Of a stretch of 64,000 nucleotides of DNA, positions 52,466-63,143 are shown piece by piece. Under the pieces are notes generated by a model. It was not told the DNA's origin, did no database searches, and saw only the letters and a list, made by a program, of their open reading frames with translations. How positions within the stretch are numbered: position 1 is the first letter of the stretch; every line of letters begins with the position of its first letter. Made by a program: the position numbers and the translations under genes. The stretch covers positions 3,510,001 to 3,574,000 of the forward strand of contig NC_022657.1 in the NCBI RefSeq assembly GCF_000494755.1, in the 5' to 3' direction. This DNA comes from Amorphoplanes friuliensis DSM 7358 (GTDB taxonomy: Bacteria; Actinomycetota; Actinomycetes; Mycobacteriales; Micromonosporaceae).

Positions 52466-52506
52466 GACGCCGGCTGTCCACCCCGAGCGGGAGGGCGGCC
52501 GGCGTC
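52466..52506. terminator. Hairpin terminator between convergent genes
   Basis: GACGCCGGC (52466-52474) and GCCGGCGTC (52498-52506) form a nine-base stem; the 23-base loop contains a weaker CCC/GGG pairing. It overlaps the stop of the minus-strand membrane protein and follows the EEP gene. Confidence 0.7.
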
Positions 52507-53224
52507 ACTGTTCCGGCAGTCGCAACCCGAAGCCGTGGAAGGGCTCCAGTGCCACGCAGACCAGCGTGAGCGCCACGGAGACCACCACGCTCGCCAGCGC
52601 GGCCCGGCGCAGTCCTCGTGTCGGTGCCGCCCCGACGGCCACCACACCGGCCGCCCAGGGCAGCGACCACCACAGCGCGAACTGCCCGATGGCCGGCAGC
52701 CCGGACAGGTGCAGGTTGGCGCGCAGCAGGGCGGGGAGCAGGATCGCGACCGCGGCCCCGGCGACCAGTGCGACCGGCTGCGAGCGCAGCCGCTGGTTCC
52801 GGCAGGTGGCGTGGCGGTAGAGCACCGCGCTCGCCACGATCACACCGGTGCCGAGGACGGCGATCAGCAGGGCCAGCCGTGAGCCGGCGTACCCGCGTTC
52901 CCAGCTGGAGTAGTCGACACCGGCGAAGTTGCGCCAGTCGTGCGAGGCCACCACCGCGATGCCGGTCACCTGGAGGCCGTTGACCCCGCCGATCACCGCG
53001 GCGACACCGGCAGCGGTGGGACGGCAGGCGGCCACCAGACCCGCGACACCGATCGTGACGAGCGCCGGCAGCATCATCAACGGGTACACGGTGTCGGCCG
53101 AGCGGTCGGACGAGCTTTCCGGCAGGGCCAGCACTCCGGCGATCGCGGCGGCCAGCACCGTGACCAGGAGGCCTGTCCACCGGACCGGCGTGGTGACACT
53201 GAGACGGCCCACGTCCCTGATCAA
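52505..53224 (-). CDS. Hypothetical multi-pass membrane protein (239 aa)
   Basis: About six membrane helices with short loops (for example WTGLLVTVLAAAIAGVLALP, MLPALVTIGVAGLVAA, LALLIAVLGTGVIVASAVLY, VALVAGAAVAILLPALL). The start is probably TTG 53224 or GTG 53212. I do not recognise a family. It lies 29 bases after the DUF1501 stop on the same strand and may be the last gene of that operon. Confidence 0.72.
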   Translation of the reverse strand: MIRDVGRLSVTTPVRWTGLLVTVLAAAIAGVLALPESSSDRSADTVYPLMMLPALVTIGVAGLVAACRPTAAGVAAVIGGVNGLQVTGIAVVASHDWRNFAGVDYSSWERGYAGSRLALLIAVLGTGVIVASAVLYRHATCRNQRLRSQPVALVAGAAVAILLPALLRANLHLSGLPAIGQFALWWSLPWAAGVVAVGAAPTRGLRRAALASVVVSVALTLVCVALEPFHGFGLRLPEQ

Positions 53225-53253
53225 CGACTCCGCGGCGCTCAGGTCACTGCCGG

Positions 53254-54516
53254 TCAGCGGGCGCGGACCACCCCGGAGGTGGTGTTGCGGACGTTCGGGA
53301 AGACCGAGCGGGTGTTCTTCAGGCCGCAGCGTTTCTGCAGGATCTCGCCGATGACCGCGCGGTAGTCGGTGGTCACCGCGAGGTCGCCGTCGACAAGGTG
53401 GCGTTCGCCCAGACCGGGCCAGCGGCCGTGCACCTTGCCACCGGCCACGCCCCCGCCGAGCAGCAGCATCGCGTTGCCGTAACCGTGGTCGAGCCCGCCG
53501 GAGCCGTTCTGGCGGACGCGGCGGCCGAACTCGCTGACCGTCACGACCGTGACCCGCTGCATCCCCGTCTTGCCGAGGTCGGTGGCGAACGCGGCGAGGG
53601 CGGCGGCGAGCTGGGCCAGCTTGTCGTGCATGCGCTTGCCGGGTACGGCCAGGCCGACGTTCTCGTGCATGTCCCAGTCACCCGAGTCGATGCACGCGCT
53701 CATCAGGCCGGCCTTGCCCTTGATCAGGCGGGCGACGTCCCGCAGCGCCTTGCCGAGGGTGTCGTCGGGGTACTTCGCGCCGTTCGCCGGCTGGTACGCC
53801 TTGGCCGCCAGCGCCTTCGTGGTGGCGAGCGACGACGTGACCTGACCCGCCGCCTGGCTCAGGACGGCAGGCGCACCCGCGTAGAGCGCCGACAGGGTCG
53901 CCGCCATCGGCTGGTTGTCCTGGTCGCCGAACAGGCTGAAGTCGTCGAGGCTGCGCATGCCCAGCGCGGGGGCGGGACCAGCCATCACCCGGGCGGGCAT
54001 CGGGCTGCCGAGCGACACCCCGTTGAAGGGGCTCGCCGCACCGAGGCCGCCGAGCATCCGGTCGAGCCAGCCCGTCCGCAGCGAGGTGCCGGGCGCGGCG
54101 CGTTCCAGCTCCTCCATCGCGGAGAAGTGGGACCGGTTGGGAGCGGGCTGGCCGACGGCCTGGACCGCGCCGAACGTCCGGGCCTTCCAGAACGGCAGCA
54201 GCGGCGCGAGCGCGGGGTGCAGGCCGAAGCGGGTGTCACCGCCGATCAGGCGGGACTTGGCGACGGCGATGTCGGGTCGCGCGGCGTAGTAGCCGGGGTC
54301 GCCGGCGGGCACGATGGCCGAGAGACCGTCGAAGCCTCCGCGCAGCGACAGCAGGACGATCGTGTCACCGGTGTACTTGCCGGCCGCGAAGGCCAGCTGG
54401 GTGGAGAGCTGGTCACCGGCGAGGCCGGCCAGAGCGCCGGCGGCCGCCGCGCCCAGGATCCCGCGGCGGGTCACGGTCGGCGGGCAGTCGCAATCGGTAC
54501 GGGTCATCGTCGTCAC
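53254..54516 (-). CDS. DUF1501 family secreted protein (sulfatase-like fold), Tat substrate
   Basis: A 420-aa protein. N-terminal TRRGILGAAAAGALAGL is a twin-arginine signal. The mature part has LSLRGGFDGLSAIVPAGD (about 45-62) and VTVSEFGRRVRQNGSGGLDHGYGN, the DUF1501 hallmarks, with a His/Asp-rich putative metal site and an alkaline-phosphatase-like fold. GTG 54516 overlaps the stop of the DUF1800 gene. DUF1800 and DUF1501 proteins occur side by side in many bacteria and are thought to act together outside the membrane; their function is not known. Confidence 0.88.
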   Translation of the reverse strand: MTTMTRTDCDCPPTVTRRGILGAAAAGALAGLAGDQLSTQLAFAAGKYTGDTIVLLSLRGGFDGLSAIVPAGDPGYYAARPDIAVAKSRLIGGDTRFGLHPALAPLLPFWKARTFGAVQAVGQPAPNRSHFSAMEELERAAPGTSLRTGWLDRMLGGLGAASPFNGVSLGSPMPARVMAGPAPALGMRSLDDFSLFGDQDNQPMAATLSALYAGAPAVLSQAAGQVTSSLATTKALAAKAYQPANGAKYPDDTLGKALRDVARLIKGKAGLMSACIDSGDWDMHENVGLAVPGKRMHDKLAQLAAALAAFATDLGKTGMQRVTVVTVSEFGRRVRQNGSGGLDHGYGNAMLLLGGGVAGGKVHGRWPGLGERHLVDGDLAVTTDYRAVIGEILQKRCGLKNTRSVFPNVRNTTSGVVRAR

Positions 54517-56066
54517 CTCACCGCGAAGAAGGGGGAGTTCAGGATCAGGGCCACGAGCTGGGGCAGCCGCCAGCCGACGGCGGCGTCGGCCGGCTTCAGG
54601 ACCGTGGCTGAGGTCTTCCCGAAGAACGCCGCCAGCGCCGTCGTGTGCGCGGCGGGCAATGTCCGGCCGAGCAACCGTCGTGCCAGGGCGTCGATCAGCG
54701 CGCCGTAGGTCGCGGGCAGCTCACCGATGAGCTCCTGCGCCAGGTTCGCCGGCCGCTGGAACTCCTTGGGGCGGTACCCGGCGACGATGTTGAGGTGCGC
54801 GTTCCACTTGGCGAGCAGGCCACCGGGTGAGGTCCAGGCCGAGGCGACGTCGGGAAAGCCGTTCGGCGGCGCCCAGGACATCGGGGCGTGCCCGAGCGAG
54901 CCGATCAGCCAGTACAGCGACTCGATGCCGGCGGTCCCGGACGCGTCCGGCCCGTAGCCGACCGTGCGGACCGTGGCGACGATGTCCTCGTACGGCGTGC
55001 GGATCTTCTTGCCGACGGACTCGCGGAACTCGGCCGAGGTGAACAGCGCCCGCAGCACCGGCGCGATCGCCGAGCCGTGGTCGAGATAGACCTTCGCCAG
55101 CCTGGTCACGAGCGAGGCGGGCGGGGTGTCGGCGACGAAGCGCACGACCAGTTTGGTGGCGAGGTGCCGTGCGGTCGCCGGGTGCAGGGCCAGGTAGTCC
55201 AGCAGCTCCAGCGCCGCCGCCTCACCACCCGCGGCGGTCACGTTCGCGTGCCGGAACTTCAGCACGGTGACCGGCCCGGTGGCGTGGGAGTTGGGGCTGA
55301 ACTTGTAGAGGCCGGTGTCCCAGTCGACGGTCAGGCCGGTGAGCATCCGGGCGGCGTTCCTGACGTCGGACTCCGAGTAGCCCAGCCCGACCGTGTGCAG
55401 CTCGAGCAGCTCCCGGCCGTAGTTCTCGTTCGGCGCGGCACGCGTGGAGAAGCGGTTGTCGAGGTAGGTCAGCATCGCCGGGTGCCGGGCACTGGCCTTG
55501 AGCATGTCGGCGAAGCGGCCCAGGGCGTACGGGCGGATCACGGCCCGGTCGTAGTCGTGCCGGTTGTCCCAGACGTCGGCGGACGGGTTGGTCACGTTGA
55601 GGTGGTTCGACCAGAAGTCGACCATGACCTCGAAGAGCTGGCGCTCGCTCCAGATGGCCCGGCTGGTGGTGGCGAAGCCCAGCTGGAGCATGGTGTCCCA
55701 GCCGTACCGCTGGGTGCCGGCCGCGACGCGGGACCGCAGCTCGCTGATCGACAGCGCGGTCAGCGGGAAACGCGTCAGCAGCGCGTCGCAGTCCGCGTCG
55801 GCGATGCCGGACGGGTCGAGCTGCCGGTCGAGCCAGGCCGCGGTGCCGAGCTCACGGATCTCGGCGAGCGAGGCCGGGGTCGGACCGTAGGTGGCCCGGC
55901 GCAGCAGGTGCAACTGCTGATCGGTGCTGACGTAGTAGCTGCCCGGACGGACCGTGGCGGCGTCGGCGGCCGCGGCCGGCACAGCCACGGCGGCGGTCAC
56001 GCCGGCGGCACCGCCCAGGACACGGCGGCGGCTGACAGGAGTCTTCGGAAATGCCCTCACGGACAC
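54513..56066 (-). CDS. DUF1800 family secreted protein, Tat substrate
   Basis: A 517-aa protein. The start is GTG 56066, with a twin-arginine signal SRRRVLGGAAGVTAAVAVP. The body has LHLLRRATYGPTPASLAEI (about 55), MVDFWSNHLNV (about 150), NYGRELLELHTVGLGYSE (about 215) and NGFPDVASAWTSP, all typical DUF1800 segments. It is helical, probably extracellular, and co-translated with DUF1501. It begins 46 bases after the dehydrogenase stop, so it may belong to the polysaccharide operon. Confidence 0.88.
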   Translation of the reverse strand: MSVRAFPKTPVSRRRVLGGAAGVTAAVAVPAAAADAATVRPGSYYVSTDQQLHLLRRATYGPTPASLAEIRELGTAAWLDRQLDPSGIADADCDALLTRFPLTALSISELRSRVAAGTQRYGWDTMLQLGFATTSRAIWSERQLFEVMVDFWSNHLNVTNPSADVWDNRHDYDRAVIRPYALGRFADMLKASARHPAMLTYLDNRFSTRAAPNENYGRELLELHTVGLGYSESDVRNAARMLTGLTVDWDTGLYKFSPNSHATGPVTVLKFRHANVTAAGGEAAALELLDYLALHPATARHLATKLVVRFVADTPPASLVTRLAKVYLDHGSAIAPVLRALFTSAEFRESVGKKIRTPYEDIVATVRTVGYGPDASGTAGIESLYWLIGSLGHAPMSWAPPNGFPDVASAWTSPGGLLAKWNAHLNIVAGYRPKEFQRPANLAQELIGELPATYGALIDALARRLLGRTLPAAHTTALAAFFGKTSATVLKPADAAVGWRLPQLVALILNSPFFAVR

Positions 56067-56111
56067 CTGTTCGACCCGGCGCGGAAGCGACTTCGGGGTA
56101 CCGCGTGATGG

Positions 56112-57554
56112 CTACCCAGCCGCAACCGACCGGTTCGCGGGGCGGGGGATGGCGGGGCGCACCGGGCGGGGCCGCAGGTCCGTCGCGGGCTCGGCGTGGC
56201 GGCCCATGCCGCGGTAGCGCCAGCCCGCGGCGGTCCACGCCGCCACGTCGAGGCAGTTGCGGCCGTCGACGACCAGCCGGCCTGCGGCGAGCCGGCCCAG
56301 GTGCACCGGGTCGGCCGCGCTGAACTCCGGCCACTCCGTCAGCACGCAGACCAGCTCCGAGCCCCGGACCGCCTCCTCCAGACCCGGTTCGAAGATCAGG
56401 TTCGGGTGTACGCGGGCGGCGTTGCCCATGCCCTCGGGGTCGTAGACGTGGACATCGGCACCGGACGCGGACAGGGCGGCCGCGATCGCCAGCGCGGGGG
56501 AGTCCCGTACGTCGTCGGAATGGGGTTTGAAGGTCGCCCCGAGCACCGCCACGCGGGTGTTGCCGAAGTCCGGACCGGCCGGCCCGGTGGGGCAGTCGAG
56601 CAGCTCGGCGGCGCGGCGCAGCACCCGGCTGCGGCTGCGCTGATTGATCAGGTCGACCTCGTGCAGGAACCGCAGCGACTCACCGACACCCAGTTCCTGC
56701 GCCCGGGCCTGGAACGCCCGCAGGTCCTTGGGCAGGCAGCCACCGCCGAAGCCCGCCCCGGCGCGCAGGAAGCGGCTGCCGATGCGCGGATCGTGCCCGA
56801 TCGCCCGGGCCAGCTGGTCGACATCGGCCCCGGCGGCCTCGCAGACCTCCGCCATCGCGTTGATGAAGGAGATCTTGGTGGCGAGGAACGCGTTGGCAGC
56901 CACCTTGACCAGCTCGGCGGTCGCAAAATCGGTCACCACCACCGGAACCTCGCGCTGTTCGCGGGCGGCCAGATCGAGGACACCCCGGTGCGCCGCGGAC
57001 AGCATCGTGGCGGCCCAGTCGCTGCGCACACCGGCGACGATGCGGGTCGGGCGCAGGACGTCCTGCACGGCGAAGCCCTCCTGGAGGAACTCCGGCGACC
57101 AGGCGACCTCGGCCCCGAGCCCGGCCGGTGCGTGCTTGTCGACGAGGCGTTGCACCCACTCGGCCGTACCGACCGGAACGGTGGACTTGCCCACGATCAG
57201 CGCCTTGCGGGTGAGCCGGCGGGCCAGCCCGGTGACCGCCGACTCCACGTAGGACAGGTCGGCGCCGGTGTCGTCGGCGCGTTGTGGTGTCCCCACGCAC
57301 ACGAAGTGGATGTCGCCGAAGTCGGCCGTCTCGGCGTACGAGGTGGTGAAGCGCAAGCGGCCCGCGGCGAGGTTGCGGCGCAGCAGCACGCCGAGACCCG
57401 GCTCGTGGAAGGGGACCACACCGTCGGACAGCGCCGCGATCTTGGCGGTGTCGACGTCGAAGCCGAGCACCTCGTAGCCCAGCTCGGCGAAGCAGACGGC
57501 GTAGGTGGCACCCAGATAGCCGGTGCCGACGAAGGTCAGGCGGGGAAGCGTCAT
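56112..57554 (-). CDS. ugd: UDP-glucose/GDP-mannose dehydrogenase family protein
   Basis: A 480-aa NAD-dependent nucleotide-sugar dehydrogenase. The N-terminal Rossmann motif is VGTGYLGATYA, GKSTVPVGT is near residue 125, and the catalytic Cys lies in GFGGGCLPKDL (about 272). The C-terminal domain has GATFKPHSDDVRDSPAL. It likely oxidises UDP-glucose to UDP-glucuronate (or a similar pair), supplying uronic acid precursors. ATG 57554 overlaps the GT39 stop (ATGA). The symbol is by family likeness; the exact substrate is not certain. Confidence 0.9.
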   Translation of the reverse strand: MTLPRLTFVGTGYLGATYAVCFAELGYEVLGFDVDTAKIAALSDGVVPFHEPGLGVLLRRNLAAGRLRFTTSYAETADFGDIHFVCVGTPQRADDTGADLSYVESAVTGLARRLTRKALIVGKSTVPVGTAEWVQRLVDKHAPAGLGAEVAWSPEFLQEGFAVQDVLRPTRIVAGVRSDWAATMLSAAHRGVLDLAAREQREVPVVVTDFATAELVKVAANAFLATKISFINAMAEVCEAAGADVDQLARAIGHDPRIGSRFLRAGAGFGGGCLPKDLRAFQARAQELGVGESLRFLHEVDLINQRSRSRVLRRAAELLDCPTGPAGPDFGNTRVAVLGATFKPHSDDVRDSPALAIAAALSASGADVHVYDPEGMGNAARVHPNLIFEPGLEEAVRGSELVCVLTEWPEFSAADPVHLGRLAAGRLVVDGRNCLDVAAWTAAGWRYRGMGRHAEPATDLRPRPVRPAIPRPANRSVAAG

Positions 57555-59089
57555 TTCACGTCCTTGCGGTCGAGCGCGAAGATCCGGACGTTCTCGAAGG
57601 TCCGGTACGGGACGACGGTGTACGCGGTCAGCAGGAAGCCCTGCGTGGCACCGGGCATGCCGTCCATCGGCGACAGGTTCGACTGCGTGGTCGACACCAG
57701 CCAGATGCGCCCGGTGTCGCCGACGCAGAGGCCCGGGTCCGCGCACTCCTCGGCGCCGAACGTGCCGTTGGCCTGGGAGGTGCGGTGGACCAGCACGTCG
57801 CGCGGCATCGCGGCGTCCCGGGCCTCGTAGTCGAAGGCCCGGCGGCCGTTACGGGTGGAACCCGCGTAGGCGATGCCGTCACCGGGCCGGGCGGCGGCCA
57901 GCACGGCAGCGGCGGCGCCCCGGAAGTCGGGCTCGCCGTAGACCGGGCTGTGCCGGGCCGCGCGCTGCCCGGGACCGCTGACAAGAAGCATCGCGGCCAG
58001 CACCAGCAGCGCGCTCAGCGACACCGGCACCTTCGACGAGAGTCTTCCCGTGAACCGCACCAGCGAGTAGCCCACGGCGGCCGCGAGCAGGGCCCAGGCC
58101 GGCAGCGTGAAGAGCAGGTAACGGTGCAGGAACAGGTGGAACAGCGGGAAGGTGACGTAACAGAAGACCGGCGGGAAGATCGCCCACGACAGCAGCAGCA
58201 CCAGCGAACCCCGGTGCCGGGCGCCGAGCAGGACCGTCGCCAGCAGGGCTGCCGCCGTGACCACCAGCGCCACCTGCCAGGAGCCGAAGATGCGCTCGGG
58301 CAGTCCCGTCACCGCGGCGCCGTCGGCCTTGATCCAGGCGATGACACTCGCCTGGTCCGAGCCCTTGGCCGCCAGCGGCAGCGCCGCGGTCACCGCCAGG
58401 GACGCCCCGGCGATCCACCGCAGCAGCCGCAGATCACCGCTGACCCGGAACGCCCGGGCCATGAACGCCGCGTGCGCGAGCAGCACGGTCAGGGTCACGA
58501 TGTGGACCAGCCCGGCCAGGATCAGACCGGCGGCGTAGAGCAGCCACCGCCGCCAGTCCGGGCGTTCCATCGCCCGCAGCAGCAACAGCGTGGCCAGCAC
58601 GGCAAAACCGATCGCGAACGCGTACGGGCGGGCCTCCTGGCCGTACCGGGTGACGGAGGGCAGCCCGCCCAGGATCAGCCCCGCCGCCAGACCCGTCCCC
58701 GTGTCGAAGAGGCGGCGCCCGAGCAGGGCGGTGAGTGCGGCGGTCCCGGCCATCGCCAGCGCGGAGGGCAGCCGCAGGCTCGTCTCGGAGTCACCGAACA
58801 GCACGATCCAGTAGTGCATCACCACGTAGTACGGCGCCACCACCGCGTCGACGTTGACCAGCAGCTTCGACAGGTCACGGAAGCTGAGCGTCGAGGCGTA
58901 CCAGGTGGCGTACTCGTCGTTCCACATGCTGCGGGAGCCGATGCCGAGGACCGAGAGGGTCAGGGCGAGCGCCGCCGGTGGCAGGGCCAGCAGCACGGTG
59001 CTCAGCAGCGACCAGCGGCGTGGTGGGGGCTCGGCCTGCTGCGCGACGACAGGGGGGACGGGACGGGAGAGCACCTGTGTGTCAGTCAA
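57551..59089 (-). CDS. GT39/PMT-like membrane glycosyltransferase
   Basis: A 512-aa membrane protein with about 11-12 helices. The first extracytoplasmic loop has MWNDEYATWY, with the DE pair (about 54-55) typical of GT-C polyprenyl-phosphate-sugar transferases. SVTRYGQEARPYAFA follows in the next loop. A soluble C-terminal part of about 150 residues ends the protein. It transfers a lipid-linked sugar outside the membrane. TTG 59089 is preferred (AAGGGAAG upstream); it overlaps the acyltransferase stop by eight bases. Confidence 0.86.
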   Translation of the reverse strand: MTDTQVLSRPVPPVVAQQAEPPPRRWSLLSTVLLALPPAALALTLSVLGIGSRSMWNDEYATWYASTLSFRDLSKLLVNVDAVVAPYYVVMHYWIVLFGDSETSLRLPSALAMAGTAALTALLGRRLFDTGTGLAAGLILGGLPSVTRYGQEARPYAFAIGFAVLATLLLLRAMERPDWRRWLLYAAGLILAGLVHIVTLTVLLAHAAFMARAFRVSGDLRLLRWIAGASLAVTAALPLAAKGSDQASVIAWIKADGAAVTGLPERIFGSWQVALVVTAAALLATVLLGARHRGSLVLLLSWAIFPPVFCYVTFPLFHLFLHRYLLFTLPAWALLAAAVGYSLVRFTGRLSSKVPVSLSALLVLAAMLLVSGPGQRAARHSPVYGEPDFRGAAAAVLAAARPGDGIAYAGSTRNGRRAFDYEARDAAMPRDVLVHRTSQANGTFGAEECADPGLCVGDTGRIWLVSTTQSNLSPMDGMPGATQGFLLTAYTVVPYRTFENVRIFALDRKDVK

Positions 59090-61217
59090 CGTTCTTCCCT
59101 TCGGTGGCGAGCTGCTCGTCCAGCAGCCCGGCGAGGCGCTTCGCGTACACGGAGGTCAGGTGGTTGTCGTCGCGGTAGACGACGGTGCCGCCGATGACCG
59201 ACGGGCAGATCCACGGGGTGCAGAACCAGGCGGCCGTGTCGACGACCTTCGCGCCGTGGACCTGGACCAGCGCCCGGACGAACCGCTGCCGCGACAGCAG
59301 CAGCGACTTGAGCACCTCGAGGTGGCAGTCGGCGGCGACCCGCCGGGTGGCCAGGCACCCGGGGACGTCGAAGTGCGCGACCGGCGTGTCCTGCACGACG
59401 ACCGGCAGCGCGCCGCTCTCCCGCACCCGCAGGACGGTCGACGCCCACGCCTCGGCCCAGTCCTGGTCCGGACCCGCGGTGACCTTCACGTCGAGCGGGC
59501 TCGCCTCACGGTTGCGGCCCGACATGACCACCATCGCCGGCCGCAGCTGCCGGATCCGGGCCAGCGCCCGCTCCCGCCACCGGTCACATTCCGTGTACGG
59601 CCCGACGCGGTTCACCCCGCCGACCGTGCCCCGGGCGGGCCCGCAATCGGTCTTGGTGAACACCGCGAGCCGCCACCCGTGCTTGCGTGCCACCACGTCG
59701 AGCGCACCGAACCACTGCTGGGCGTGCGAGTCGCCGAAGAGGACAACCAGCTTGCCGCCGTCCGCGACGCCGAGCTTCTCGCAGCCGCGGGCGATCGCCG
59801 GGGACACCAGCTCCTCCTTGAGCGACGCCAGGCAACCACCGTCCCGCGGAACGCTTGTCACCGCCTCGTCCAGGGACGGCGTGAGGGTGGCCGGCAGGGT
59901 CCGCCGGGTGCTGTCGGCGCGGATGATCCGCTGCAACTGCGCCAGGCCGACCTGACCGGACGCCAGCACCCGCACCGGGTCGAACGCCGCGGCCTTCGGC
60001 GCCGGCGGCGCGGGGACGGGCAGCGCGGCCAGGACCACGGCCAGACCGGCGGTCACCGCGGTCAGCACGCCGCCGAGGACCAGGGTGCTGCCGGGCCGGG
60101 CCCGCAGAACGCTGTTGAGGCGGATCCTGTTCTCCACCGCGGCCGTCGACATCGCCGCCGGCACCAGGGCCCCGGCCACCAGGGCCAGCCGTTCCGGCAC
60201 GGAGAGCGGGTGCCCGAGCACGTACGGCGCGAGCACCAGGACCGGCCAGTGCCACAGGTACCAGGCGAACGACACGCGGCCCAGCTCCTGCACCGGCCGC
60301 AGTCGCAGCAACCGCCGGGCGCCGAGTGCCGGGCGGGCACAGCCTCCCCCGATCAGCAGCGCCGAGCCCGCGACCGCGAGCAGTGCCGCGTACACACCGG
60401 GGACGGGCGCGTCGTCGTAGGTGGCCACCGCGACACCGACAACCGCGAGTCCCAGCCAGGTCAGCACGGCGGCCGTCCGGGAGCCGAGCCGTGCGAGCCG
60501 GACCGCGCCGAGGGCGACCAGCGCGCCGAGCCCGAACTCCCAGGCCCGCGCGGGCAGACCGTAGAACGCCCAGAGCTGACCGGTGGCCGCCTGCCACACG
60601 CACAGGCCGAAGGAGGCGCCCGTCAGCGCCACCAGCACGACGGCCACCGAGACCCGGCTCGGCCGGCCGCGGCGGGCCCAGCTCAGCGCGACCACGACCA
60701 GCAGCAGGGGCCAGACCAGAGAGAACTGCGCGGCCAGGGCCAGCGACCAGAAGTGCTGCAGCGGTGCCGGATCTGCCACGCCGCCGTCCTGCAGGACCAG
60801 CCGGACGTTCATCGTGGACGTCAGCGCGGCGGCGGAGTCCCAGGAGATCGCCGGGCGTACCGCTGCGGGCATCCAGTGCCAGCAGGCGGCGAGCGTGCCG
60901 GCCACGACCACCGCGGAGGCGGGCAGTAGCCGCGTCATCCGCCGGGCGTAGAAGCGGCGCAGCGAGAGGCGCCCGGTTCGCTCGAGCTCCCGGACGATCC
61001 CGCCGGTGAGGAGAAACCCGGAGATGACGAAGAAGACGTCGATCCCGACGCCGCCACCCGCGAGGCCGGTGCCGGCCTGACCGGCGACCAGCAGGAGCAC
61101 GGCGACGGCCCGCAGACCGGCGACGTCCCGGCGGAACACGGGTGCCTCCGGGGGTGCAGCCTGCATCGGCGGCGGCAGAGCAGTGGCGGCGGCGTACGTC
61201 ATCGTCGAGGTGCTCAT
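59082..61217 (-). CDS. OafA/YrhL-type acyltransferase with C-terminal SGNH domain
   Basis: A 711-aa protein. The first 400 residues form an acyltransferase-3 membrane domain (FRRDVAGLRAVAVLLLV, GIDVFFVISGFLLTGGIVRE, then WYLWHWPVLVLAPYVL). The C-terminal part is an SGNH hydrolase-like domain with GDSHAQQW (about 494, nucleophile Ser) and DDNHLT (about 683, Asp/His). Such two-domain enzymes add acetyl or other acyl groups to extracellular polysaccharides or peptidoglycan. ATG 61217 overlaps the GT2 stop (ATGA). Confidence 0.9.
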   Translation of the reverse strand: MSTSTMTYAAATALPPPMQAAPPEAPVFRRDVAGLRAVAVLLLVAGQAGTGLAGGGVGIDVFFVISGFLLTGGIVRELERTGRLSLRRFYARRMTRLLPASAVVVAGTLAACWHWMPAAVRPAISWDSAAALTSTMNVRLVLQDGGVADPAPLQHFWSLALAAQFSLVWPLLLVVVALSWARRGRPSRVSVAVVLVALTGASFGLCVWQAATGQLWAFYGLPARAWEFGLGALVALGAVRLARLGSRTAAVLTWLGLAVVGVAVATYDDAPVPGVYAALLAVAGSALLIGGGCARPALGARRLLRLRPVQELGRVSFAWYLWHWPVLVLAPYVLGHPLSVPERLALVAGALVPAAMSTAAVENRIRLNSVLRARPGSTLVLGGVLTAVTAGLAVVLAALPVPAPPAPKAAAFDPVRVLASGQVGLAQLQRIIRADSTRRTLPATLTPSLDEAVTSVPRDGGCLASLKEELVSPAIARGCEKLGVADGGKLVVLFGDSHAQQWFGALDVVARKHGWRLAVFTKTDCGPARGTVGGVNRVGPYTECDRWRERALARIRQLRPAMVVMSGRNREASPLDVKVTAGPDQDWAEAWASTVLRVRESGALPVVVQDTPVAHFDVPGCLATRRVAADCHLEVLKSLLLSRQRFVRALVQVHGAKVVDTAAWFCTPWICPSVIGGTVVYRDDNHLTSVYAKRLAGLLDEQLATEGKNVD

Positions 61218-62842
61218 GACACCACCGCCGACGTGCGGGCGCCGGGGATCGCCGGGCGGGCGGCCGGACGGCGTTCGGGGGTGGCGCGACCGCCGAGCAG
61301 CAGCGGCCAGACGAAGTAGATCATCGGACCGGCGAACAGGATCGTCGCCCAGAGCAGGTCCAGGCCGTGGCTCCGGACGGCCAGGACGATCCCCGTCCAG
61401 GTCAGGACCTGGGTCGTGATGAGCCAGACCCGCAGCAGGCGCAGCACCCGCTTGGCGGTCGGCGTCCGCTTGGCGGCGCCCGTCGGCACCCAGGCGGCGG
61501 TACGGCCCCGCAGGAAGTCCAGCAACGCCAGCGCGTGGCAGAAGCCGATGAGCATCTGGACGCGGACGACCGCGGGTGACCAGCGGTAATCGGTGACCCG
61601 GGGCATCAGCGTCGACCAGACGAAGATCGTGCCGATCAGCGGCAGGTAGTTCAGCGGCCGGATCTGGTCGGGGAAGAACCACAACATCAGGAAGGCCGGG
61701 AGCTGGCTCGTGAAGGCGGCGATGGCCGTGGTGATGTAGTACAGGAAGCCGGTCCAGAAGCAGAGCTTCTGCTTGACGGTCAGCCGCGACCGGTGGAAGC
61801 CCGGGTCGGAGAGCAGACTCATGCTGCCCGTGCACCAGCGGTACTGCTGGTTGGCAAAGCCGTCGAAGTTGTCCGGGCAGACACCCTTGGCCAGGTTCAC
61901 CGGCACGTACCGGGTCCGGAACCCGGCCTTCGCCATGTTCACCCCGGTGTGGACGTCCTCGCTGTGCCCGATCTGCGCAAACCCGCCCGCGGCCTGCAAC
62001 GCACTCCGGCGATAAACAGCATTGGTACCGACACAGATCGCGGCGTCGACGGCGTCCCGGGCCGGCTGGATCCACCGGTAGAACATCTCCTGCGTGGCGC
62101 CGGCCGACCGTTGCAGCCAATTGAAGTGATCCTGCTGAACATCGAAGAATTGCGGCGACTGGACGATACCGACGGCCGGATCCTCGAAGTACGGCGCGAG
62201 CTCACGGGTCATGTCGGCACGCGGTGCGAAGTCGGCGTCGAACACGTGGATCAGGTCACCGGTGGAGTGCTCATAGCCGTACCGGAGGTTGCCCGCCTTT
62301 TTGAGCTCTCCCCGGTTGGGCCGGGACAGATAGTGAAAGCCGTGATCGTGCGCGAGTGCGGCGACAGAATCGCGCCCGGAGTCGTCGAGCACGTAAACGG
62401 TGAGTGGTCCGGGCCACTCCAATGCGGCGACGTGCCGATAGGTATTGGTGAGGATGCTCAGCGGTTCCCCGGCCGACGGCAGGAACACATCGACCGACGG
62501 ATGCACAACGGGCCGGTACGCGGCGATCAGCGCCTCGTGCCCGGCCCGGGAACCACGTCGTTTGCGCGTGCTGGACAGCAGGCTGATGAACACTGCCGCC
62601 ACCTGGAGAGCGATCAATTCGTAGAGCAGGCTGGTCCACATCGAGTTGGCCGCCAGCCGGGCCATACCGAACATGACACCCGCGAAGGCGAGCAGGAACA
62701 CGCAGAAGATCCAGCGGCCCTGGCGTCCGTAATAGAGATATTTCTCCTTGTCGTTCGGCGGCAGCGGCACATAATCCACCACTGTCGGCGGACCGGTGAC
62801 GGACCGCGAGACTTTTTCCTGTCGAATCTGTTCGACTACCAC
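61214..62842 (-). CDS. Processive family 2 glycosyltransferase (cellulose synthase/hyaluronan synthase-like)
   Basis: A 542-aa membrane GT2 enzyme. Two N-terminal helices precede the catalytic domain with VLDDSGRD, FDADFAP (DxD), SEDVHTG (catalytic base region) and QQYRWCTG (QxxRW), the processive signature. Several C-terminal helices form the channel. GTG 62842 has GGAAGG about eight bases upstream; TTG 62848 is an alternative. It heads the operon that includes the acyltransferase, the GT39-like enzyme and UDP-sugar dehydrogenase, so a secreted acylated polysaccharide is the likely product. No PilZ domain was seen. Confidence 0.9.
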   Translation of the reverse strand: MVVEQIRQEKVSRSVTGPPTVVDYVPLPPNDKEKYLYYGRQGRWIFCVFLLAFAGVMFGMARLAANSMWTSLLYELIALQVAAVFISLLSSTRKRRGSRAGHEALIAAYRPVVHPSVDVFLPSAGEPLSILTNTYRHVAALEWPGPLTVYVLDDSGRDSVAALAHDHGFHYLSRPNRGELKKAGNLRYGYEHSTGDLIHVFDADFAPRADMTRELAPYFEDPAVGIVQSPQFFDVQQDHFNWLQRSAGATQEMFYRWIQPARDAVDAAICVGTNAVYRRSALQAAGGFAQIGHSEDVHTGVNMAKAGFRTRYVPVNLAKGVCPDNFDGFANQQYRWCTGSMSLLSDPGFHRSRLTVKQKLCFWTGFLYYITTAIAAFTSQLPAFLMLWFFPDQIRPLNYLPLIGTIFVWSTLMPRVTDYRWSPAVVRVQMLIGFCHALALLDFLRGRTAAWVPTGAAKRTPTAKRVLRLLRVWLITTQVLTWTGIVLAVRSHGLDLLWATILFAGPMIYFVWPLLLGGRATPERRPAARPAIPGARTSAVVS

Positions 62843-62848
62843 CGACAA

Positions 62849-63143
62849 AGCCTTCCGAATATGGTGACGGAACCGGACCGCGCAGCGGCGCAGCGATCAC
62901 CGTGGCCGGGCCCGGCAGCAGTAGTCGATCACACGGAATCGGTACACAAATGACGTTCTTCGCAGGTTCACCGTTCTCTTGCGGGGTCGGCCGATCGGTC
63001 GGGGATTAATCGCCGTTTCGTTCCGTGACAGGGGAGTGGACGCAGTTTCCCGCACATATGTGAGCACCGCGCTGCGCCATTCACGTTCCAGCCCATCACG
63101 GTGTCACTATCCGTAACCGGCGGCGCAATGCCGCGGAAACACA
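62849..63143. other. Intergenic region between the polysaccharide operon and the MEDS genes
   Basis: About 295 bases with no supported gene. The region is less GC-rich than its surroundings, and a perfect palindrome CACATATGTG lies at 63053-63062. Promoters for the leftward operon and the rightward MEDS genes should lie here, but no strong hexamer pair was found. Confidence 0.5.

Follow-up and report, generated by a model that had tools for sequence, protein, structure and literature searches.

A functional link between the DUF1800 and DUF1501 protein families and chitin synthase, based on shared operons, was proposed in 2016 (PMC5122149). In Brenneria, Pectobacterium, Dickeya, and Agrobacterium vitis, these operons have the order chitin synthase-DUF1800-DUF1501 (PMC5122149), and a table in PMC6329079 numbers a Dickeya DUF1501 gene next to a glycosyltransferase. 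A comparable arrangement is described here for Amorphoplanes friuliensis DSM 7358, within a stretch of 64,000 nucleotides (NC_022657.1, positions 3,510,001-3,574,000), referred to as the window, in whose numbering coordinates are given. As in the chitin synthase operons, DUF1800 and DUF1501 adjoin a family 2 glycosyltransferase (GT2) polymer synthase, and DUF1501 carries a twin-arginine translocation (Tat) motif (PMC5122149). However, the published operons combine a sugar epimerase gene with a chitin synthase of eukaryotic origin, to which an aminotransferase domain is fused in several cases (PMC5122149), whereas the window represents Actinobacteria and combines a cellulose-synthase-like GT2 with a nucleotide-sugar dehydrogenase, an AT3 acyltransferase fused to an SGNH domain (AT3-SGNH), and a GT39-like membrane glycosyltransferase.

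The idea that the pair acts on a polymer is therefore not new, being partly anticipated by the chitin synthase link (PMC5122149). The operon adds a second lineage to that link, and a structural model of DUF1501 suggests which chemistry to seek. Also added here are a unit conserved in six genomes, a single recruitment of the pair, the rarity of the linkage as sampled, the alkaline-phosphatase (AP) superfamily fold predicted for DUF1501, and the loss of AT3-SGNH residues in three of the six copies. DUF1800-DUF1501 is a widespread two-gene module found across many phyla, yet in a PubMed Central subset only 10 papers name DUF1501 and 4 name DUF1800. A pair tied to one biosynthetic product provides a readable assay, namely a comparison of the polymer made in its presence and in its absence.

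Two further systems invite comparison. BcsG, from the Escherichia coli cellulose operon, has five transmembrane (TM) helices and is a phosphoethanolamine transferase on cellulose (PMC11379886). Like the predicted DUF1501 enzyme, BcsG belongs to the AP superfamily, is encoded with a cellulose-synthase or cellulose-synthase-like gene, and acts outside the membrane. DUF1501 differs in having a Tat-like signal and a DUF1800 partner gene, whereas BcsG has a known reaction. The second system is mycobacterial arabinomannan tailoring by SucT and by the mannosyltransferase MT1671, which we take to be CapA. These are the nearest NCBIfam models of AT3-SGNH and the GT39-like protein, respectively, both far below their cut-offs, and the AT3 His is lost in the window copy. 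Succinylation is required for mannose capping by CapA (PMC10503756).

A conserved six-gene unit in Actinoplanes

The six genes are co-directional on the minus strand (62842-53254), in the order GT2, AT3-SGNH, GT39-like, uridine diphosphate (UDP)-sugar dehydrogenase, DUF1800, and DUF1501 (Table 1). Neighbouring genes overlap by 4 or 8 bases at four of the five junctions; at the remaining one, a gap precedes DUF1800. A first-pass annotation of this DNA had named the four polymer genes as overlapping and followed by DUF1800/DUF1501, which open reading frames and Pfam matches bear out. The short intergenic gap that it placed before DUF1800 is real, but its length is 45 bases and not 46.

Conservation of the unit was assessed in the genus Actinoplanes in the broad sense, for which 67 genomes were searched with GT2. 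Matches at E <= 1e-180 occur in seven of the 67, six of them with at least 80% identity. In all six, AT3-SGNH, GT39-like, dehydrogenase, DUF1800, and DUF1501 follow GT2 in the same order, and the DUF1800/DUF1501 pair forms the 3' end on the same strand. The first-pass annotation had named a lack of linkage in relatives as one finding that would refute its proposal, and this is not what is observed. In one of the genomes (G025), the operon is split over two contigs inside the dehydrogenase gene, and its continuity is read from the two contig ends. In three genomes, the gap before DUF1800 has a length of 45, 51, or 52 bases; in G245 and G241 it is about 70. The overlaps, together with this conservation, suggest that the six genes are co-transcribed.

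GT2 relatives at E <= 1e-60 are present in 33 of 200 family genomes. Among 36 such regions fetched in addition to that of the window, two (G225 and G159) contain the pair, the region from G025 ends within the dehydrogenase gene, and the other 33 are without DUF1800/DUF1501 in the fetched stretch. At E <= 1e-15, the fetched flanks of the window and of G159 have no gene in common with any other operon locus. Some flanking genes of G225 recur in G025 and in G245/G241, and many are common to G245 and G241. Because the shared block is constant while its surroundings differ, the six genes can be regarded as one unit. Homologues of the exonuclease/phosphatase flank of the window, used in an empty-site test, occur at E <= 1e-60 in four of the 67 genomes, its own counted. 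The G159 operon (L096:668-4678) and a distant GT2-GH26-GT39-like cassette of G146 (L112:10227-12907) seemingly have the same neighbours when open reading frame lists are compared by eye, possibly marking an old insertion place.

Operon copies of DUF1800/DUF1501 are kept down to 65% identity, and all tested invariant positions (11 in DUF1501 and 16 in DUF1800) are retained in the six copies. Ratios of nonsynonymous to synonymous substitution (dN/dS), crude values obtained by the Nei-Gojobori method for three genome pairs, are below 1 in every pair for DUF1800 (0.155-0.386) and DUF1501 (0.066-0.359). The ranges for the other operon genes are as follows: GT2, 0.079-0.183; dehydrogenase, 0.099-0.295; GT39-like, 0.169-0.526; and AT3-SGNH, 0.158-0.534. 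By this measure, constraint on the pair is in most comparisons weaker than on GT2, but no weaker than on GT39-like and AT3-SGNH.

Phylogeny places the origin of the operon pair among its paralogues. In a concatenated DUF1800+DUF1501 tree of 36 chosen rows (all six operon pairs plus 21 pairs of class B, 8 of class A, and L044), the operon pairs form one clade (94.4/97), sister to stand-alone class B pairs. The operon clade is also recovered (100/100) in a 66-row DUF1800 tree that holds four operon copies. Each of the six operon genomes has one to four further DUF1800 copies. A single clade that is sister to paralogues, in genomes with further copies, indicates on sequence grounds that the pair was duplicated into the operon once and then retained. 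The three additional DUF1800 copies of the A. friuliensis genome (G000:C1:8340584, 5525895, and 4499966) fall into three tree classes, each with DUF1501 behind it.

Table 1. Features of the operon locus in window coordinates
Feature	Position	Strand	Basis and remarks
GGAAGG box 5' of GT2, likely its ribosome binding site	62851..62856	-	Block common to six aligned operons, which also holds the GT2 start codon
GT2 synthase, processive-type, cellulose-synthase-like	61214..62842	-	Pfam, PDB sequence matches, motifs; GTG start
AT3 acyltransferase fused to SGNH domain	59082..61217	-	Pfam; ATGA overlap with GT2
GT39/PMT_2-like membrane glycosyltransferase	57551..59089	-	Pfam PF13231; 8-base overlap with AT3-SGNH
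Nucleotide-sugar (probably UDP-glucose) 6-dehydrogenase	56112..57554	-	Pfam, TIGR03026; ATGA overlap with GT39-like
Gap between dehydrogenase and DUF1800, 45 bases	56067..56111	-	Operon alignment, fold test
DUF1800 protein, Tat-like signal, all-helical predicted fold	54513..56066	-	Pfam, AlphaFold2
DUF1501 protein, Tat-like signal, predicted AP-superfamily fold	53254..54516	-	Pfam, AlphaFold2; GTGA overlap with DUF1800
Predicted membrane protein, outside the unit	52505..53224	-	Six hydropathy peaks; no Pfam match

The sugar-polymer genes

GT2 has the motifs VLDDSG, DAD, SED, and QQYRW, the last of which agrees with the QxxRW signature of processive enzymes. Most of its sequence matches in the PDB are to cellulose synthases of the BcsA family, with a best E of 2.3e-32. 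Against the NCBIfam cellulose-synthase equivalog TIGR03030, it scores 164.2 bits (cut-off 699.1) and so falls below the level of that assignment. Neither PilZ nor the chitin synthase family is among its Pfam matches at E <= 0.001. The GT39-like protein matches PF13231 with 46.1 bits (cut-off 26.1). The dehydrogenase has three nucleotide-sugar dehydrogenase Pfam domains and reaches 392.9 bits for TIGR03026 (cut-off 189.8). It stays under the substrate-level equivalogs nearest to it, TuaD (336.1 bits vs 700) and AglM (314.6 vs 670), both of which are UDP-glucose dehydrogenases. The presence of this gene suggests that a uronic acid is added to the polymer.

Evidence on the backbone comes from glycoside hydrolases of family GH26. 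In G245 and G241, an extra GH26 gene lies between GT39-like and the dehydrogenase (L224:13071-14183 and L225:12722-13834), and the PDB sequences closest to that of G245 are beta-mannanases and endoglucanase H. GH26 was also identified in seven of seven genes tested between GT2 and GT39-like in distant family cassettes; in cassettes of another type, none of the three genes tested behind AT3 is GH26. The GH26 genes and their PDB neighbours thus point to a beta-linked backbone that may be mannan- or glucan-like. The family GT2-GH26-GT39-like cassettes resemble the operon in having the same GT2 and GT39-like families close together. They differ in that the stretches fetched contain neither a dehydrogenase adjoining GT39-like nor DUF1800/DUF1501.

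AT3-SGNH has both of its Pfam domains, and the window copy keeps the SGNH motifs GDSH and DDNH. The R-X10-H motif of AT3 acyltransferases is described as essential and absolutely conserved (PMC9833829). Its His is replaced by Gln in the window copy and by Ala in that of G225, and is kept in the other four of the six operons. G159 retains this His, but its SGNH serine is replaced by Ala and its SGNH His by Asn. Because motif residues are replaced, acyl transfer is probably impaired in three of the six copies (window, G225, and G159). These losses, set beside the intact residues of the DUF pair in all six operons, are a hint, short of proof, that the product depends more on the pair than on acylation.

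DUF1800 and DUF1501 as a candidate tailoring pair

Both proteins are assigned with high scores, DUF1800 (PF08811) with 434 bits (cut-off 26.1) and DUF1501 (PF07394) with 104.7 bits (cut-off 27). The Tat label of the first-pass annotation agrees with the twin arginines found in both (SRRRVLG and TRRGILG), and a simple RRx-hydrophobic pattern is present in 66/66 DUF1501 and 56/66 DUF1800. Export of the two proteins through Tat is thereby suggested.

No solved structure in the PDB matches either protein by sequence. AlphaFold2 models have a mean predicted local distance difference test score of 92.0 for DUF1800 and 90.8 for DUF1501. The DUF1501 model aligns with 7mw8_C, the Xac nucleotide pyrophosphatase, over 244 residues (VIA-align Z 17.9, root-mean-square deviation 3.5), and its Foldseek matches include sulfatases, LtaS, YejM, and BcsG. 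An AP-superfamily fold is thus predicted. Residues D63, S129, H130, D282, H284, E329, R332, N337, D343, and H344 are invariant in 67/67 rows, and invariant residues lie near the strand ends that bear the metal ligands and the nucleophile in the AP fold, a mapping made by topology only. The DUF1800 model is all-helical, with Q82, E146, R178, N213-E214-N215, R218-E219, and E222 invariant in 65/65 rows. Against the PDB, it gives no Foldseek match at E <= 0.001 and a whole-chain VIA-align Z of at most 3.5, although a missing match does not prove a new fold.

The reading we favour, although it is somewhat short of probable, is that one operon makes, exports, and tailors a surface polysaccharide, with DUF1800/DUF1501 tailoring the polymer and the action of BcsG on cellulose serving as the working analogy. 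GT2 would polymerise and extrude a beta-linked backbone, and the dehydrogenase would provide a UDP-uronic acid. Outside the membrane, the GT39-like protein could add a sugar from a polyprenyl-phosphate donor, and AT3-SGNH would acylate in some strains. DUF1800 and DUF1501 would leave the cell folded via Tat and act as a pair, DUF1501 as a metal-dependent AP-superfamily enzyme with S129 as the nucleophile and DUF1800 as its helical partner. In the manner of BcsG, DUF1501 would act on the exported polymer or on the donor lipid of that polymer, adding or removing a group linked through phosphate or sulfate. The substrate, the chemistry, and the pairing with DUF1800 are our inferences.

A broader proposal, which we consider unlikely, is that the two proteins represent a new type of Tat-exported tailoring pair, composed of an AP-superfamily phospho- or sulfo-enzyme and an all-helical partner to which no solved structure was found to be related. 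Such a pair would have been recruited independently by the cellulose-synthase-like operons of Actinoplanes and the chitin synthase operons of proteobacteria, and stand-alone pairs would perform the same chemistry on other surface glycans.

Several observations weigh against a tailoring role in the operon. DUF1800 and DUF1501 evolve faster than GT2 as judged from the crude dN/dS values, and the six operons are one evolutionary event that counts once. In AP-superfamily enzymes, the second metal is held by an Asp-His pair. Placed by topology only, DUF1501 has Glu-Phe (E329-F330) at this position, and since Phe330 replaces the usual metal-binding His, the metal site may be altered. The profile comparison of DUF1501 with nucleotide-pyrophosphatase-type enzymes is not significant (hhalign probability 2.4%, E 0.019). 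DUF1501 has no hydropathy peak, so it lacks N-terminal TM helices; without the membrane anchor that the five TM helices give BcsG (PMC11379886), it is not a BcsG. The genomic distribution of the pair adds to these points.

Stand-alone pairs and competing explanations

A DUF1800 search yielded 94 places in 60 relatives and the A. friuliensis genome. Sixty of the 94 were fetched first (59 of the 78 from the genus and one from the same order), followed later by four more from the order; the unfetched places of the genus are mostly short class C copies. DUF1501 lies behind DUF1800 in the same direction in all 60 fetched regions. However, 58 of them have no operon gene beside the pair, the exceptions being the window and G025, in which the dehydrogenase end stands at the contig edge. 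Wider sampling gives a similar picture. A survey of named loci took the best 80 of a longer list, from many phyla and with many loci on short contigs. DUF1501 directly follows DUF1800 in 78 of these 80 (61 detected by script and 17 by inspection, where open frames start ahead of the DUF1800 stop codon); in the remaining two, L208 and L223, no DUF1501 is detectable.

A GT2 hidden Markov model built from 36 family sequences matches none of these best 80 loci, many of them short contigs, and one of the 60 regions around the genus, the window itself; chitin synthases and non-processive GT2 might escape this model, which was run without a positive control. It is thus exceptional for the pair to adjoin a polysaccharide synthase, the exception in print being the chitin synthase operons of Enterobacteriales and Agrobacterium vitis (PMC5122149). 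In the family as sampled the linkage is rare, and it does not explain the family. The suggestion of the first-pass annotation that DUF1800/DUF1501 act on the exported polymer is plausible for this operon, given the Tat-like signals and a predicted AP fold like that of BcsG and sulfatases, but these counts leave a general polysaccharide role, considered from gene neighbourhoods, unsupported.

Plasmids also carry the module. DUF1800 matches occur in 53 plasmid records, of which 10 were opened; one of the 10 has no annotation. DUF1501 follows DUF1800 in the nine annotated records, and a GT2 annotation within 8 kb of the pair is absent from all nine, whose gene tables are incomplete. In the L137/L138 set, the pair of a Paracoccus saliphilus plasmid has rfbABCD 2.7 kb upstream with an IS5 transposase between, and that of a Miltoncostaea oceani plasmid has an LCP gene about 3 kb upstream. 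Some 3-8 kb downstream of stand-alone class B pairs (L039-L088), genes for GH77, GH46-F5/8, and GH16-ricin proteins are often present.

The main rival to the tailoring role is shared regulation without a shared substrate, which we regard as a serious possibility although not the expected outcome. Here, the pair would be a generic module of exported proteins with a separate task in the envelope or on phosphate esters; one copy would have landed behind the dehydrogenase gene and be kept there for dosage or regulation, without touching the polymer. The 58 regions without an operon gene and the 80 loci without a GT2 match favour this explanation, as do the additional DUF1800 copies in every operon genome. 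The conserved neighbours of stand-alone pairs (TerC, ROK, DUF2252, and GH77) are mostly unrelated, which points the same way. However, the pair has stayed in the six-gene unit while flanks changed and identity fell to 65%, and chitin synthases provide a similar link in print (PMC5122149), both of which speak against this rival.

A second alternative is that the pair releases or anchors the chain, with DUF1501 cleaving or forming a phosphodiester that joins the polymer to an envelope carrier and thereby setting attachment instead of decoration. The putative fold is compatible with this, since AP-superfamily matches include phosphodiesterases and LtaS, and an exported pair does stand at the end of a polymer operon. 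However, Pfam identifies no known anchoring gene among the six, and release or anchoring seems improbable. That DUF1800/DUF1501 are a separate transcription unit merely placed behind the operon is very improbable: theirs is the only one of the five junctions without an overlap, and a CCGAAC string (TCGAAC in the window) ends 8-9 bases 5' of the DUF1800 start codon in the six operons, but the gene order is kept in six genomes, the fold of the gap is not unusual (z 0.62), and a scan ill-suited to actinobacteria found no sigma-70-type or terminator-like site in it. The CCGAAC-like string stands in an otherwise variable gap and is unlike a ribosome binding site.

At the other end of the pair, a hairpin 3' of DUF1501 is unremarkable given its base composition (z -1.29). 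The interval of the first-pass annotation runs to 52505 and so takes in the predicted membrane protein gene. As a seventh member of the operon, this gene was rejected, since it is not beside the operon in relatives (tblastn E <= 1e-8). Its homologues (E <= 1e-10) occur in eight of the 67 genomes, its own counted, and in the operon-bearing G225 the homologue is on another contig. Because these homologues are not with the operon in relatives, the unit ends at 53254, and the interval 52505-62842 is reduced to a six-gene unit at 53254-62842.

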